Source: Hyunsoonleella aquatilis | Lineage (GTDB): Bacteria > Bacteroidota > Bacteroidia > Flavobacteriales > Flavobacteriaceae | Length of the DNA stretch: 64,000 bases | Reading direction: 5' to 3' | NCBI RefSeq assembly: GCF_014270105.1 | Contig: NZ_JACNMF010000001.1 | Span: forward strand, 434,001 to 498,000 | Part shown: positions 18,853 to 24,714 of the stretch, piece after piece | Layout of the letters: every line of letters begins with the position of its first letter | How positions within the stretch are numbered: the first letter of the stretch is position 1 | Program-made: the position numbers and the translations under genes | The notes under the pieces: generated by a model | Told to the model about the DNA's origin: nothing | Seen by the model: the letters and a program-made list of their open reading frames with translations, nothing else | Databases searched by the model: none

Positions 18853-18863
18853 GGGGTGTTTAC

Positions 18864-19373
18864 TTAGCCCTTTGTTGTCAATTCTCTGGCAAAGTCAATA
18901 AATAGTTTATAAGCCTTAGTAAATGAATATTTGTCATCAGAATGTTTTATTGCTATGTTTCTTTTTACCATAGTCGAACCAACTAATCTTTTGATGCTTT
19001 CACCATCATTTAATTGTTTGTTCGCTTTTACGACATCTATCCAAGTACTGTTTTTTATATATTCTACTATCTCTTCAATATGGAAGTCTGAAAAACCTAG
19101 TTCATCCATAAAGTTTTTCCCATCCTTGTCTAATTCGTAGCATAGAACCGAGAAGAAGATGCTAATATCACGAGAAGTGTTCTCGTTTGTTTCATCTGAA
19201 ATTAGATAATAAAATTCTTGAGTGTTTTTAAGTTCAAATCCAAATGATTTGTCAAAAAACTCAACATAGAAGTCTTGATTTTCCTTTAGAATATCAAAAT
19301 AAGATTCATCAATTGTGATAAATCTACCATCCATTAAAGATGTCACTATTTGCTTATGTTTATTCGGATACAT
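18864..19373 (-). CDS. MksE/JetB-like KITE subunit of an SMC defence complex
   Basis: 169 residues, last gene of the four-gene SMC operon, overlapping the preceding gene by 14 nt. It opens with a winged-helix-like segment ending in GRFITIDESYFDILKENQDFY and continues with FFDKSFGFELKNTQEFYYLIS, the pattern of MksE/JetB proteins (DUF4194-like KITE proteins with tandem winged helices). A second winged-helix region follows (about 110-165). KITE subunits bind the kleisin and regulate SMC loading on DNA. The assignment rests on pattern, size and operon context; a profile search would be decisive. The converging permease gene ends 11 bp away. Confidence 0.72.
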   Translation of the reverse strand: MYPNKHKQIVTSLMDGRFITIDESYFDILKENQDFYVEFFDKSFGFELKNTQEFYYLISDETNENTSRDISIFFSVLCYELDKDGKNFMDELGFSDFHIEEIVEYIKNSTWIDVVKANKQLNDGESIKRLVGSTMVKRNIAIKHSDDKYSFTKAYKLFIDFARELTTKG

Positions 19374-20571
19374 TCTCTTTTTTGCTGATTTTTAGTTTGG
19401 GCATAATAAATTCTCCTTGTTTTGTTTTCAAGGAAATATTCTCCCTTTCTTTATCTTGTTCAATATCGTATTCTTCCTCAAATATTAGACTTGTTAACAT
19501 AAAATAGTTGTTAATGTCAAAATCTTTATTTTCATTTTCAATTGCTTTCTTGCACCAAGAGAAGAAATCAGTTACTGGAAGCTTTGAGTTTAGTTGGGAT
19601 TTATACTCCCTCTTATTGAAAATCCATTGTTTAATATCGTAGGCTTCTTCTTCAACAAAAACATCTTCTTCATTTTTGAATTGCTCAAAATACTCCTTTG
19701 TGTTTTCGTAGATATACTGATTGTATAGATTATCTCTGGACGTACTGAATAGTCTTGGTGGCTTTATTCCTTTGTAACAATTCATATTTGTCAGATACAA
19801 ATGAAAACCTTGAAGATATTCACTTTCGGTTCTAATCCTGTCCAATAAAGGCAAAAGCTCGTTGCTTAAGACTGTCGATTGTTGACTGATGTCCTTAACG
19901 ACTTGTCGTAAAAGATTGTAGAGTTTTTCAAATTGTCTTCTGATACTTTCGTCTGAATAATCAAATCGTTTATTGTTAGAAAATTGGGAAATCGCAAGTA
20001 GTTCGTTATAAATCGATTGTGAGTGATTAATATCCAAAATTGTATTCAAAGGAATAATGTAGTATTCAATTAAATATCTGGCATTTTGAACTTTTTCCTG
20101 ATATTCAATCTTTCGGGTATTGGCCTTTAATTCTCTTGATTCATTTAAAAGGCTAACCGTATTGTTCGTTACAGCATTTCGGAACTTTTTGATTTCATTG
20201 GATAAAGCTTCAATTCTGTCCAACAAAATGTTCTTGTCTTGATTGATACCTTCTTTTATGTTCAAAAACAAGGTTCTAATTGACTGACCAAATTTTTCAA
20301 TTTCTTCTGGAAGCAAAGGTTTAAATTGTTGCAGAACAAACTCAAATAGCACAAAATAGGGTTCATAAATCACAAAGTCATTATTCTGTTCAACGAGTAT
20401 TTTGTGCTCAAAAAGTTGATTTTCAATATCGCTTCCGAATTCTTTTAGTGTTTCATCAACTTGACTTTTTAGGATGATTTCATTCTTAACTTGAATGTCA
20501 AAGAGTTGGCGTAGCAAGTCAAAATGAGTTGCTAAAAATTGTACTATGCTCTTTGGTTCTGACTTAAACAT
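19360..20571 (-). CDS. MksF/JetA-like kleisin subunit of an SMC defence complex
   Basis: 403 residues, predicted mostly helical. The N-terminus (SIVQFLATHFDLLRQLF, then LKSQVDETLKEFG) looks like the winged-helix start of MukF/MksF/JetA kleisins. The middle (about 110-270) is a long helical, coiled-coil-rich region, and the C-terminal acidic and aromatic stretch (about 320-403) could be the domain that docks on the SMC head. It overlaps the Toprim gene upstream by 8 nt and the KITE gene downstream by 14 nt. Sequence similarity to known kleisins is too weak to see by eye beyond the N-terminus; the call depends on the operon. Confidence 0.66.
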   Translation of the reverse strand: MFKSEPKSIVQFLATHFDLLRQLFDIQVKNEIILKSQVDETLKEFGSDIENQLFEHKILVEQNNDFVIYEPYFVLFEFVLQQFKPLLPEEIEKFGQSIRTLFLNIKEGINQDKNILLDRIEALSNEIKKFRNAVTNNTVSLLNESRELKANTRKIEYQEKVQNARYLIEYYIIPLNTILDINHSQSIYNELLAISQFSNNKRFDYSDESIRRQFEKLYNLLRQVVKDISQQSTVLSNELLPLLDRIRTESEYLQGFHLYLTNMNCYKGIKPPRLFSTSRDNLYNQYIYENTKEYFEQFKNEEDVFVEEEAYDIKQWIFNKREYKSQLNSKLPVTDFFSWCKKAIENENKDFDINNYFMLTSLIFEEEYDIEQDKERENISLKTKQGEFIMPKLKISKKENVSE

Positions 20572-21358
20572 TGATGAGCGTTTCTTGTTCTAAAAATCTA
20601 TTGGTTCGGGCAACTTGTTCTCTGATTTTTACGACTGTTGAATCATCTGATGTCTTAACAGCCTTACTCATTTTAGCTTTGTTTCCTTTTAAAGATGCCG
20701 AATGCTTTTTAAAGAGTTCACTGTAATTATTTGGCAGATACAATTCTGCATTTCCAAACACTTCTTTGATTCTCAAATATTCGTCAAGTCCGTTAAAGTC
20801 ATAGTCAACAAAAACCAAAACCTCCTTTGCTTTAATCATTGAAATGGATTCTTTGCCTATTCGTCCGTATTTGTGGGCAAATAGAAATTCGTTGCCCAAT
20901 AATTTTTCCGCATTCAAAAAGGTTTCCAAATTCTCGACAAAACATATTTTATCAGCTATAACAGAAATAGGGATTACAGAGAACAATCCAAAATCACGAG
21001 TTAGTTTTTCTAAATCAATTATCTTCTCATTGATTTGATAAGCAGAAAATCCTCTGAATAAAAAAATGGGGTTGCTATCAACTTTTGTAGCCTTTGAGTT
21101 TCTGTATTTTTTGATGTTTCCCGATTTGGATTTGGAAACGTCTTGTTCCGGAAATGACGTTTTGAAGAATTTTTCAAATTCAGTTTCTTTGGAAATTTCA
21201 ATCTTAAATCCTCTGCCAAGTTTTGAAGATTTAAGAATTTCAGCTTCAAGCAGATTTTTAAACGTATCGGACTGCAAAACACTTTTCGGAACAGCCGATT
21301 TTGAAATAGATTTGTTTTCAAGCAATAATTTATATGTTTTGAAATCGACTTCTTTCAT
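20564..21358 (-). CDS. Toprim-domain protein, JetD/MksG-like putative nuclease
   Basis: 264 residues, overlapping the SMC gene by 4 nt. The C-terminal half has a Toprim core: Glu142 in ICFVENLETFLN, then Asp185 and Asp187 in EVLVFVDYDFNGLDEY, and a closing RFLEQETLI like the C-terminal segment of JetD and topoisomerase VI A-type proteins. These acidic residues would bind Mg2+ and cut DNA. In Wadjet systems the Toprim subunit cleaves small circular plasmid DNA once it is extruded by the SMC motor. The protein is short for JetD (usually nearer 400 residues), so the N-terminal arm or CAP-like region is reduced. The N-terminal part (1-95) is basic and unrecognised. Confidence 0.74.
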   Translation of the reverse strand: MKEVDFKTYKLLLENKSISKSAVPKSVLQSDTFKNLLEAEILKSSKLGRGFKIEISKETEFEKFFKTSFPEQDVSKSKSGNIKKYRNSKATKVDSNPIFLFRGFSAYQINEKIIDLEKLTRDFGLFSVIPISVIADKICFVENLETFLNAEKLLGNEFLFAHKYGRIGKESISMIKAKEVLVFVDYDFNGLDEYLRIKEVFGNAELYLPNNYSELFKKHSASLKGNKAKMSKAVKTSDDSTVVKIREQVARTNRFLEQETLINV

Positions 21359-24018
21359 TGGGTTTCAACGGGTTTTCTTAAAATAACATTTCCATTTTTC
21401 TCACTTACCACTATTTTCCCTTTACTTCTCCTCACCAAATAGTATTTGTCAAAACCATCATAAGGATGCAATGGTGCCGCTGAAATCGGTATGAAGTTAT
21501 GTTCTTTACAGAAGTTCAAAATTTCAATTCTATTTGCCTCGTCAATGGTTCCGATTTCATCAACAAATATCACAATTTTGTTTTCATGATCTTTCACAAC
21601 GATTTGATTGATAATTGACATAATCAGAACCAAGCGTATCATTTTGTCTGTTCCGTCCGATTCGATTTGGTTTTTTAGGTCTACGACTTTGTGCTGTCCT
21701 TTTTTATGTAGATGAAGTTTAATGTCAAATAAATCATTAAACGAAATTGTGGTTTGACTATCCAAATATTTGTTGAGTGTATTTAGGTTTTCAGATTGGT
21801 CGTCAAAAATCAGTTCAGAAGTTAAATCTCTAATTTGGATGATTTTGTTTAAGTCCTTAATGAGTTTTTCATTCTCAATGATTTCTATCTTCAAAGTATC
21901 GATATCCGAAATCTTTATCTTCCGAATTTTAGAATTGAACTGATTGGTTATAAAAGAGTTAAATTCTGCAAACCTTGTATATAGTGTGCGACAAGGATTT
22001 GCAAATTGGGTGGAAATATTTTTTAATAAGCCATCAATGGCTTTTTGTTTGTCGTCTAAGGTTACAAGCTCAGACTCAACGTATCGGATAAATTCATTTT
22101 CGTCTGCTTCTAATCTCTCAGTTTTGTTTTTTAATTTTTCAAAAAGTTTAAACTTATCATTTTTAATTTGCTCTCGTTCTTGAAAATTTCTTCTTATGTT
22201 GGCATAAATATTATCTAATGAATCTGTTGATTGATAATCTTTAGGTTTGATTCCAAATTGCTCAAGCTCAACTTTCCATTTTTGTATATCATTTATTCTT
22301 TGTTCCTTTTGAATTATTTCAGAATTAGTTTTCTCAATTGTTTCTGAAAGCTTCCTGACTTCTTCTTCAATTAACCTAATGTCTTTAGCAGATTGCTCTT
22401 TTTGTTTGAATAAACTTTCAAATTCTAATTTTAAAGACTCAAGTTCCTTCTCAAGTTTTGGAAGTTGTTTTAGCTTTTCTATTTTATCGGTTACACCCTT
22501 GATTTTCTTCTTTATTTCTAGTAAATCCTTTTGATGTTTCTCTAAATCCTTGGCTATAGGAAGTAGCTTTTCATTAAAGCTTTTTTCCTTTTCAAATTCC
22601 TTGATCTGTTTTTTCAACTCTTTAATGGATTCTATTGGTTTTCCTTTCAAGTCATTTGGCAACATTATAACTCCGTCAAAGAGTTTCATCAAGTTTTCCG
22701 TTCGCTTGATTTTCGTAGAAATGTTTTCAAATGGCAGACTTGAAATATCAGTTGACAGAATCCTGTTCAGTAATTCCTTGTTATCTTGATTATCTGAAAT
22801 TTGATGAATCAATTGATTGGAATAGGTATCAACTTGACTCGTGATTCTTCTGATTTGAGATTCGGCTTTTTCAATCTTGCTATCAATTGCTTTACTATTT
22901 AGATTTTGATTTTCAATTTGGGTTAGTTGGCTCTCAATGGTTTTCCTTTCGGCATCTAAATTTTGAAAGGATTGCTCTAAAAACTGTAAACTTTCATAAG
23001 ACTTGATTTCTTTTACCAATCCATCTTTTTGGTCTATGTCTTCCTGTTTTTGTTCCAATAGGGTTTCTATTTTACCAAATTCTTGGTTTAGTTTATCTTT
23101 TTTTGGATTGAGCGTTTCGTTTAAATGGGTTCTATTTTTGTCTCTTTCTGTTTTTATTTTTGAAACAGAAGTTCCCAATTCTGAATAAAGCGATGAATAT
23201 TGATGGTCAAAAGCAAATATCAACTCTGAAAGTATCGTACTTTTTCCAGCATACTGATTTACCAATTCTTTAAAGCCATTAAAGCTACGCTGGATACTTT
23301 TGATAACTTTTATATCCCGATTGTGCTTCAATAAGGTTTGTATGTCCTTTTGGTTTTTCTTTGAGAAAGAAACTCTTTCGTTTTCTTTATTATCTGCAAT
23401 TATCAATGACTCTTTTAGCGAGTTGTTGTTTATAAGCTGTGAGTTTATCAGGTACTTATAGATTTTGGAAAAATTGTTGCTAATTCCCCGTCCATCTTGG
23501 TTTACATTTTGGTTTAACCAAACAACCGCATTGTTTCGTTTCCCTTTCTGATAGACAAAGTTGAAAACTTCCCTGCGGTTTGGGAATTTACTGTGTTCAA
23601 TTCCATTTGTGGCAAATTCGGAAAGTAATGAATCAAACTTTTTTAGTTTTTGGCCTTTCGCTGTGTCGGTAAAATAGTGTTCTTCTTTATATTCACTATC
23701 GATTTTATAATAGTTGAGATTGCCTTCGGCATTTCTTTTGACCAAAATAGAGTAGTAGCGATTTTTGAAAATCTCAAAGACAATAAAACTTGAATTTATA
23801 GAAGGGAAATAGTGATTGAATGTGGTTTTGTCTCCCGTTCTGTTTCCACTAAACGTCATTTCTCGCCCGTCAATTATAAACAAGAAATTAAGTGCATAAA
23901 TTAGCGTACTTTTTCCGATATTGTTTGGTCCAACAATTTGAAGTGAATTGCAGTCGTCAAGCTCAATATCAGCTTTCGAGTAAATGTCAGAATTCAAAAT
24001 TATCAGTCTTTTCAGCAT
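21355..24018 (-). CDS. SMC-like ATPase, MksB/JetC-type
   Basis: 887-residue ABC-type ATPase of the SMC/Rad50/MukB fold. Walker A is GPNNIGKS (residues 30-37), the signature-like SDG is at 787-789, and Walker B is VIFVDE (816-821, Asp820 and Glu821). Between the two head halves lie long heptad-like coiled coils (about 250-480 and 490-680) with a break in the middle that would be the hinge. It would act as the DNA-loop-extruding motor of the complex with the three downstream gene products. It is shorter than JetC (about 1100) and close to MksB in size. The ATG at 24018 is clear. The gene follows engB in the same direction with a 93-bp gap. Confidence 0.82.
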   Translation of the reverse strand: MLKRLIILNSDIYSKADIELDDCNSLQIVGPNNIGKSTLIYALNFLFIIDGREMTFSGNRTGDKTTFNHYFPSINSSFIVFEIFKNRYYSILVKRNAEGNLNYYKIDSEYKEEHYFTDTAKGQKLKKFDSLLSEFATNGIEHSKFPNRREVFNFVYQKGKRNNAVVWLNQNVNQDGRGISNNFSKIYKYLINSQLINNNSLKESLIIADNKENERVSFSKKNQKDIQTLLKHNRDIKVIKSIQRSFNGFKELVNQYAGKSTILSELIFAFDHQYSSLYSELGTSVSKIKTERDKNRTHLNETLNPKKDKLNQEFGKIETLLEQKQEDIDQKDGLVKEIKSYESLQFLEQSFQNLDAERKTIESQLTQIENQNLNSKAIDSKIEKAESQIRRITSQVDTYSNQLIHQISDNQDNKELLNRILSTDISSLPFENISTKIKRTENLMKLFDGVIMLPNDLKGKPIESIKELKKQIKEFEKEKSFNEKLLPIAKDLEKHQKDLLEIKKKIKGVTDKIEKLKQLPKLEKELESLKLEFESLFKQKEQSAKDIRLIEEEVRKLSETIEKTNSEIIQKEQRINDIQKWKVELEQFGIKPKDYQSTDSLDNIYANIRRNFQEREQIKNDKFKLFEKLKNKTERLEADENEFIRYVESELVTLDDKQKAIDGLLKNISTQFANPCRTLYTRFAEFNSFITNQFNSKIRKIKISDIDTLKIEIIENEKLIKDLNKIIQIRDLTSELIFDDQSENLNTLNKYLDSQTTISFNDLFDIKLHLHKKGQHKVVDLKNQIESDGTDKMIRLVLIMSIINQIVVKDHENKIVIFVDEIGTIDEANRIEILNFCKEHNFIPISAAPLHPYDGFDKYYLVRRSKGKIVVSEKNGNVILRKPVETQ

Positions 24019-24111
24019 TTTTAGAGTAAAAGGGGTTAAACCTTAAATAAAGAGTAAAAAGATAAGAGAATTTTTCTACAAAAGGATGCTGTAAATGAGA
24101 AATCATCTTAG

Positions 24112-24714
24112 TCAATGATGAACATTTCCATTCAACCCCTCAACATACCCCAAAACCGCTTCCTTCCCCATCCCATTCGATGAAGAAGTCACAAAATAAT
24201 TGGGCATTTCTTCCCAAAATTCAAGCATTGCATTTTGATATTCGGAAACATGCCGTTCAATGGCCTTGGGTTTTAACTTGTCGGCTTTTGTGAAAATGAT
24301 GGAAAACGGGATGCCGTTTTCACCCAACCATTGCATAAAATCCAAATCAATGGGCTGTGGTTTGTGGCGGATATCCACTAAAACAAAGGCTGTCACTAAT
24401 TGTTCCCGATGACTAAAATATTGGGTGATAAACTTTTGAAAGGTCTTTTTATCCCGTTTGGACACCTTGGCATAACCGTACCCCGGCAAGTCCACCAAGT
24501 GCCAATTTTTGTTGATTAAAAAGTGATTAATAAGCTGCGTTTTTCCAGGTTTTCCAGAGGTTTTGGCCAAGCTTTTACGTCCTGTAAGCATATTGATGAG
24601 CGATGACTTTCCTACATTACTACGCCCGATAAAGGCATATTCGGGCAGACTGCTCTTTGGGCATTTTGCCACATCGGAATTGCTTACCACAAATTCAGCA
24701 GACTTTATCACCAT
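24112..24714 (-). CDS. engB: Ribosome-biogenesis GTPase EngB (YihA/YsxC)
   Basis: Small TRAFAC GTPase of 200 residues needed for 50S subunit assembly. Walker A GRSNVGKSS (residues 30-38), the G3 motif DLPGYGYAKVSKRDK and the G4 TKAD in IIFTKADKLKP are visible. Full length, cytosolic. It lies 68 bp downstream of an alpha/beta hydrolase gene in the same direction, beside the mraZ-led dcw cluster, an arrangement common in flavobacteria. The SMC-type operon interrupts the region just downstream. Confidence 0.97.
   Translation of the reverse strand: MVIKSAEFVVSNSDVAKCPKSSLPEYAFIGRSNVGKSSLINMLTGRKSLAKTSGKPGKTQLINHFLINKNWHLVDLPGYGYAKVSKRDKKTFQKFITQYFSHREQLVTAFVLVDIRHKPQPIDLDFMQWLGENGIPFSIIFTKADKLKPKAIERHVSEYQNAMLEFWEEMPNYFVTSSSNGMGKEAVLGYVEGLNGNVHH

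Follow-up and report, generated by a model that had tools for sequence, protein, structure and literature searches.

A compact Wadjet-like SMC operon in Hyunsoonleella aquatilis and its nuclease-less relatives in Bacteroidota

Results

A compact four-gene operon

We analysed a 64,000-nucleotide stretch of the Hyunsoonleella aquatilis genome (Flavobacteriaceae; assembly GCF_014270105.1, contig NZ_JACNMF010000001.1, positions 434,001 to 498,000), hereafter the window, in which an operon at 18864-24018 is predicted to encode an SMC (structural maintenance of chromosomes) ATPase, a Toprim nuclease, a kleisin-like protein and a KITE protein. A check of open reading frames (ORFs) bore out the initial annotation of four overlapping minus-strand genes, with overlaps of 4, 8 and 14 nucleotides between successive genes. 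In operon order, all on the minus strand, these are a JetC/MksB-like SMC ATPase of 887 amino acids (21355..24018), a predicted JetD/MksG-like Toprim nuclease of 264 amino acids (20564..21358), a MukF/JetA-like kleisin-like protein of 403 amino acids (19360..20571) and an MksE-type KITE protein of 169 amino acids (18864..19373).

The SMC carries the Walker A motif GPNNIGKS and Walker B motif VIFVDE described initially, together with an SxGT signature motif; residues N33, G35, K36, S787, G789, T790, D820 and E821 show no variation in 78 aligned rows, and S37 is replaced by threonine in three of these. The Toprim protein consists of an N-terminal winged-helix-like part and a C-terminal Toprim part with the acidic residues E142, D185 and D187, which are identical in all 23 full-length Toprims aligned (the window copy among them; the broken Toprims of loci L016 and L034 were left out; L, G and f numbers are our labels for loci, genomes and families). 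Acidic residues of the Toprim fold sit right after particular strands, and in an AlphaFold2 model E142 directly follows strand 133-141, with D185 and D187 directly after strand 175-183. The initial annotation had set two outcomes against itself, absent kleisin or KITE folds and unconserved Toprim acids, and checks for both found neither.

All four genes are under purifying selection, with median ratios of nonsynonymous to synonymous substitution (dN/dS) among seven close copies of 0.085 for the SMC, 0.087 for the Toprim, 0.054 for the kleisin and 0.087 for the KITE gene (21 pairs per gene; individual pairs go up to 0.40 in the KITE and 0.18 in the Toprim gene, and some dS values are saturated). 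The same four genes are complete and in the same order in 16 other genomes (L006, identical to L040; L009-L013, L015, L018, L052, L055, L065, L125-L127, L178 and L179), which, with the low dN/dS medians, argues for more than a chance arrangement. A promoter scan gave no excess over shuffled sequence (19 matches versus 20.7).

Profile and fold matches

The Pfam MksE profile (PF21980) matched the KITE protein above its cut-off (E = 2.8e-23, residues 5-162), as the initial annotation had anticipated. The SMC matched Pfam DUF3584 (PF12128) at 8.8e-17, with 60.4 bits against a cut-off of 31, and did not pass the canonical SMC model TIGR02168 (25.4 bits against a cut-off of 567). Its best match among PADLOC models was LmuB (2.5e-7, residues 2-513), and JetC models matched at 0.003-0.76. 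Searched against the PDB, the SMC profile gave mostly coiled coils among the best 60 of 132 matches, with MukB at E = 0.094, and PDB sequence searches with the kleisin, Toprim and KITE profiles returned nothing relevant. The Toprim protein matched PADLOC JetD1 weakly (6.8e-5), and Pfam JetD_C (0.014) and DUF7281 (0.0085) below their cut-offs; JetD_C matched 8 of 12 members of the Toprim family, at best 4.4e-4. Against the curated JetA, JetB, JetC and JetD models of types I-III, the operon thus shows weak JetD1 and JetC matches, short of what membership in those types calls for.

The kleisin-like protein had no significant sequence match in Pfam, NCBIfam or the PDB. Modelled with AlphaFold2 from aligned relatives, it reached a predicted local distance difference test score (pLDDT) of 78.3 and a predicted template modelling score (pTM) of 0.48, and the Toprim protein 83.8 and 0.62. 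A Foldseek search of 350,542 PDB chains placed chains from MukE-MukF or MukBEF entries at ranks 1-4 for the kleisin model (E 2.2e-3 to 1e-2, template modelling (TM) score about 0.2) and Pseudomonas aeruginosa JetD (7til) at ranks 1-2 for the Toprim model (E 2.5e-3 and 3.6e-3). No match reached E = 0.001 and TM-scores were low; the top ranks were the expected families. The SMC and KITE identities are drawn from profiles, and the weaker, putative identities of the kleisin and Toprim proteins from fold ranks and weak profiles.

The wider family and its gene order

Relatives were taken as the best 80 of 170 from one scan of genome contigs. We call an operon armed when it includes a Toprim gene, and unarmed when SMC, kleisin and KITE genes occur and the locus holds no recognisable Toprim gene. 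Fifty-six of the best 80 loci are unarmed, and here the SMC and kleisin genes overlap or lie at most 30 base pairs (bp) apart in 35, are separated by 31-430 bp in 19 and by longer unrelated inserts in two. Eleven have the complete SMC-Toprim-kleisin-KITE order, and three are single odd loci, with a broken Toprim (L016), a contig end that cuts the operon (L017) or a fragmented SMC (L088). The SMC stands alone in ten, nine of which have less than 1.4 kilobases (kb) downstream; L060 has 8 kb, in which no kleisin was recognised. Armed operons were sought near the SMC loci and in samples of the family, class and phylum. Those of the window, L125-L127, L178 and L179 come on top of the ones among the best 80.

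The nearest unarmed relatives, with SMCs 44-48% identical to that of the window, are three-gene operons in the same order. The initial annotation had described two swapped halves, and the order does differ from the conserved mksFEBG order given in the available parts of PMC10123090. It is, however, the order of the Bacteroidota three-gene operon with a Toprim gene placed between SMC and kleisin, and is thus not a random swap.

The proposed compactness held: the SMC compares with 1111 amino acids for Corynebacterium glutamicum MksB (PMC10123090, in part), and the Toprim with 365-374 residues in JetD chains. Compact four-gene systems in the usual kleisin-KITE-SMC-Toprim order also exist. They occur at L007 and L008 (same phylum, other class), on a Salinibacter plasmid (L140) and on a Polaromonas plasmid (L141), with SMCs of 939-966 amino acids when the longest ORF is taken (the annotation of L140 gives a shorter protein) and Toprims of 288-318 amino acids. 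Profiles built here matched the kleisin, SMC and Toprim of L140 and L141, and the usual-order group has the same Toprim triad; its SMCs are about 17-23% identical to the window SMC.

Several further loci touch on this family. Pfam DUF7281 matches the Toprims of plasmid systems at L141 5575-6525 (1.2e-6) and L142 9690-10547 (1.5e-5, below cut-off), and may be a Toprim family of compact Wadjets. A genus-mate (G405) has a four-gene operon at L182 6417-12568, encoding proteins of 467, 229, 1057 and 306 amino acids with matches to MksE (7.4e-26) and, weakly, JetD_C (0.0079), that looks like a usual-order Wadjet. At L179 4325-13897 (G1020/G808), a divergent armed operon with the Walker A motif AENNVGKS is directly followed by SbcD/SbcC-like genes, and the G808 genome contains an unarmed operon (L050) as well. 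In the phylum sample, 59 of 395 genomes have MksE; 44 of these belong to family f18, whose MksE frames are longer.

Insertion site and mobility

The guanine-cytosine (GC) content of the operon is 0.30-0.33, against 0.36-0.44 in its surroundings. GC content and near-empty sites delimit an inserted stretch (18855..24130, ends approximate) that runs from an OppC-like permease gene to a convergent yihA-like GTPase gene. In two genus-mates (G397 and G401), flanking-gene matches end only 67-68 bp apart, which leaves a near-empty site. The permease gene faces yihA in 6 of 11 other genomes of the genus, and the remaining five show no permease gene within the 1.5 kb of yihA that were read. The gap between these genes (18853-24112 in the window) measures 67-68 bp in two of the six readable genus-mates, about 690 bp in two and 1.2-1.4 kb in two; because it holds different stretches in different genus-mates, it appears to be a permissive insertion site.

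The Toprim was found in 5 of 397 genomes of the host's family. It was matched in 7 of 395 class genomes; of these, the match in G126 proved false, being a RecJ protein, and the one in G1111 is a distant Toprim in whose neighbourhood neither SMC nor kleisin nor KITE was recognised. The SMC was found in 4 of 395 genomes of the phylum sample, and 92-94% identical SMCs occur in Nonlabens, Arenibacter, Mesonia and Flavobacteriaceae bacterium 14752. Low GC, the near-empty site in two genus-mates, the patchy Toprim and these SMCs elsewhere point to a foreign and mobile operon; with its housekeeping flanks, it fits the defence-like cargo first suggested. A plasmid search with the SMC gave four distant relatives, of which three regions were opened; no relative turned up in phage records or viral contigs, for which the Toprim was the only query. 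Integrase and resolvase genes lie upstream of the armed operon in Pontibacter (L055 1237-4155).

Neighbours, Smc and ScpB of armed and unarmed forms

Among loci flanked by 5 kb or more, 98 of 338 unarmed pairs with SMC identity of at least 60% had at least one flanking gene in common, against 0 of 29 armed pairs from 10 loci (Fisher p 1e-4; pairs are non-independent). Of 35 mixed pairs (one armed, one unarmed) at the same identity, a single one had a common flank. The mixed sister pairs L065 with L083 and L084, L052 with L034 and L038, and L055 with L057 had none; the pair L178 and L073, described below, lies outside this comparison.

We searched 61 genomes, comprising those of 50 of the 80 loci and 11 others, for Smc and ScpB, and found canonical SMC above cut-off and ScpB in exactly the same eight. 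Both were absent from all 39 unarmed-operon genomes (sorted by us, and including G808, which has an armed operon too) and from four genus-mates, and present in 7 of 17 armed genomes (two in usual gene order, one with a broken Toprim) and in the single genome with a fragmented SMC (L088). Once the eight armed genomes that belong to the window's family or are titled Flavobacteriaceae are set aside, 7 of 9 armed genomes have both, compared with 0 of 39 (Fisher p 5e-7, not corrected for kinship). The broken Toprim at L016 10662-11437 and the fragmented SMC at L088 8001-10430 belong to decayed armed-type operons in genomes with Smc and ScpB.

In family f65 (that of G1094), 52 of 64 genomes have the SMC, which is found in 38 of the 45 good-quality genomes and in 12 of the 14 genera; none of the 64 has canonical SMC. 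The seven good-quality genomes without the SMC weigh against essentiality. Five genomes of the window's genus (G000, G397, G399, G400 and G405) all lack Smc above cut-off and ScpB, and three of the four genus-mates (G397, G399 and G400) lack MksE as well. Absence of Smc alone therefore does not prove replacement by the three-gene complex, since operon-free genus-mates also lack Smc and ScpB. At most three of the 39 unarmed genomes have a par locus nearby (L062 and L073 among them), so that the case for a condensin role is one of distribution and neighbourhood. Most relatives fetched are nuclease-less and look like core chromosomal genes, which the initial annotation missed, and they are probably chromosomal condensins. 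Some bins of metagenome-assembled genomes may be mixed (L081 is titled Competibacteraceae), and the titles of those from lakes are unreliable as species names.

Loss and gain of the Toprim gene

In L178 (G1094), an intact four-gene operon has ParA-like, ParB, DapB and signal peptidase genes on its upstream side and a chorismate synthase gene on its downstream side. L073 is the same stretch at 82-83% DNA identity, in which about 28 bp replace the roughly 808 bp that hold the Toprim gene, and L062 has the same four upstream genes and chorismate synthase with no Toprim. Thirty f65 loci were fetched from the 52 SMC carriers, not including the third armed member, G1077 (L065). A full Toprim lies between SMC and kleisin in L185 (the same as L178) and L204 (L052), and a fragment in L205 (L034); 26 show the kleisin without a Toprim, and L207 ends too early.

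The L034 fragment corresponds to positions 209-260 of the L052 Toprim, which has 261 residues; it is 58% identical to that part (E = 6e-17) and sits in a 430-bp gap between SMC and kleisin; counterparts of E142, D185 and D187 are not in this relic. The rest of the gap is short repeat-like sequence common to L038 and L203, which have no Toprim match, and the SMCs of L034 and L052 are 90% identical. When SMC-kleisin gaps were searched by tblastn, only this unarmed genome showed a Toprim relic, besides the broken Toprim of L016 (control: 2 chance matches at E <= 0.01 in 520 shuffled gaps). The nuclease was thus lost at least once, and the relic in L034 proves one loss only.

On an SMC tree (a quick method, with Shimodaira-Hasegawa-like approximate likelihood-ratio support only and a root set by us on L007, L008 and L140), Toprim state changes six times with gains and losses equal in cost, also on well-supported branches alone; losses alone need 13 changes. 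This outgroup and the next branch (L125 and L179) are armed, and the six changes could be one loss and several regains. The Toprim tree leaves gain versus loss undecided, with L052, L065 and L178 on long branches. The Toprim gene is apparently a removable part of one machine.

Discussion

Wadjet systems fall into types I-III (PMC10586767 and PMC10123090, in the parts available). Like type I Wadjet and MksBEFG (JetABCD, EptABCD), the window operon has SMC, kleisin, KITE and Toprim genes in one operon, a likeness that extends to the MksE-family KITE, the Toprim acidic residues and a Toprim model nearest JetD. The unarmed three-gene operons (MksBEF-like) have the same SMC, kleisin and KITE families and order, but lack the Toprim and often have conserved flanks, whereas the usual-order compact operons (L007, L008, L140 and L141) have the same triad and differ in order and SMC identity. 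MukBEF resembles the operon in kleisin model ranks, MksE-type KITE and the MukB-like SMC family DUF3584, but its MukB chain has 1482 residues and the window operon has a nuclease gene. From Smc-ScpAB it is set apart by an SMC below the TIGR02168 cut-off.

The operon is probably a horizontally moving, compact Wadjet-like system of plasmid restriction. This reading draws on the MksE and DUF3584 profiles, the JetD and MukEF/MukBEF fold ranks and the invariant triad; on dN/dS medians of 0.05-0.09, a patchy Toprim set against 92-94% identical SMCs, and the lack of any common flank in 29 armed pairs; and on the near-empty site, low GC, the L055 integrase and resolvase, and homologous compact four-gene operons on plasmids. 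In Wadjet, circular DNA is recognised and the nuclease is then activated (PMC10512200 and PMC10586767, in part). From homology with Wadjet and MksBEFG we infer complex formation, loop extrusion, size sensing, cleavage and a plasmid target: the SMC-kleisin-KITE motor would load on DNA and extrude a loop, would run out of DNA and stall on a small closed circle, and would, once stalled, activate the Toprim subunit to cut the circle.

Some observations pull the other way. The sequence links of Toprim and kleisin to JetD and JetA are weak or absent, with Foldseek E-values of only about 2e-3, and PADLOC models found no JetA or JetB in the operon. The six genes scanned on the flanks of the operon are housekeeping genes, none of them of a mobile element or a defence system, and one armed pair, L009 and L055 (47% identity), has a flanking gene family in common. 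L178, L052 and L065 are armed amid housekeeping genes, and the genomes of L052 and L065 have neither Smc nor ScpB; the armed form may thus in some cases serve another end than defence. The operon might be a chromosomal condensin that keeps its Toprim partner for chromosome work, such as freeing tangled or dimeric DNA. The intact Toprim of L178 between parA-parB-dapB-signal peptidase and chorismate synthase genes speaks for such a role, as do the intact Toprims and single MksE per genome of L052 and L065, and the window's own genome is also without Smc above cut-off and ScpB. We nevertheless judge this role unlikely, as G397, G399 and G400 do without MksE, Smc above cut-off and ScpB, so that no such complex is needed in the window's genus; the window copy is patchy and foreign, and Smc and ScpB are both present in 7 of 17 armed genomes.

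It is still less probable that the operon is a type I-III Wadjet whose genes have been rearranged and nothing else. The four subunit types are the same and JetD1 and JetC models match, but only weakly (6.8e-5 and 0.003) and with neither JetA nor JetB, and the unarmed same-order relatives (SMC 44-48%) stand closer to it than do all usual-order systems encountered (17-23%). An anti-phage system of the Lamassu or Rad50 kind, suggested by the LmuB match that heads the PADLOC results for the SMC, is very improbable: DUF3584 is much the stronger match, and the operon adds an MksE-type KITE and a kleisin-like gene, both absent from the Lamassu components (LmuA and LmuB, with or without LmuC) given in the available parts of PMC10586767. 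The MksE match largely refutes a Lamassu identity.

Beyond the Wadjet-like reading of the window operon, a further possibility, less likely than not, is that Wadjet-like plasmid cutters of Bacteroidota have turned more than once, by nuclease loss, into the cell's sole chromosome-organising SMC complex, replacing Smc-ScpAB. The window operon would then be a still-armed, still-mobile form, and L052, L065 and perhaps L178 might have no condensin other than the armed complex. Mks condensins have precedents, since P. aeruginosa MksBEF is a condensin beside SMC (PMC7485682) and Borrelia has MksB, without MksE and MksF, beside Smc (PMC10406323), according to parts of both papers; in the two Bacteroidetes species that it covered, a Hi-C study found nothing homologous to known condensins (PMC10197239). 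Among the titles and openings of abstracts listed from open-licence PMC papers, none describes the operon or its unarmed relatives, which is no proof of absence. As far as this search goes, the compact Bacteroidota family, its gene order, the absence-of-Smc pattern and the armed and unarmed pairs are new.

The operon would be a compact Wadjet that current defence models, judged from the PADLOC matches, would probably miss, and the three-gene operon is a proposed condensin for part of the Bacteroidota. In this family, closely related operons that differ in the nuclease occupy one chromosomal site, and a relic of the nuclease and a mobile armed form occur as well; the step between the forms is therefore accessible both to comparison and to the addition or removal of a single gene. 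The family may show how one of the two, a DNA-cutting defence and a chromosome organiser, turns into the other.

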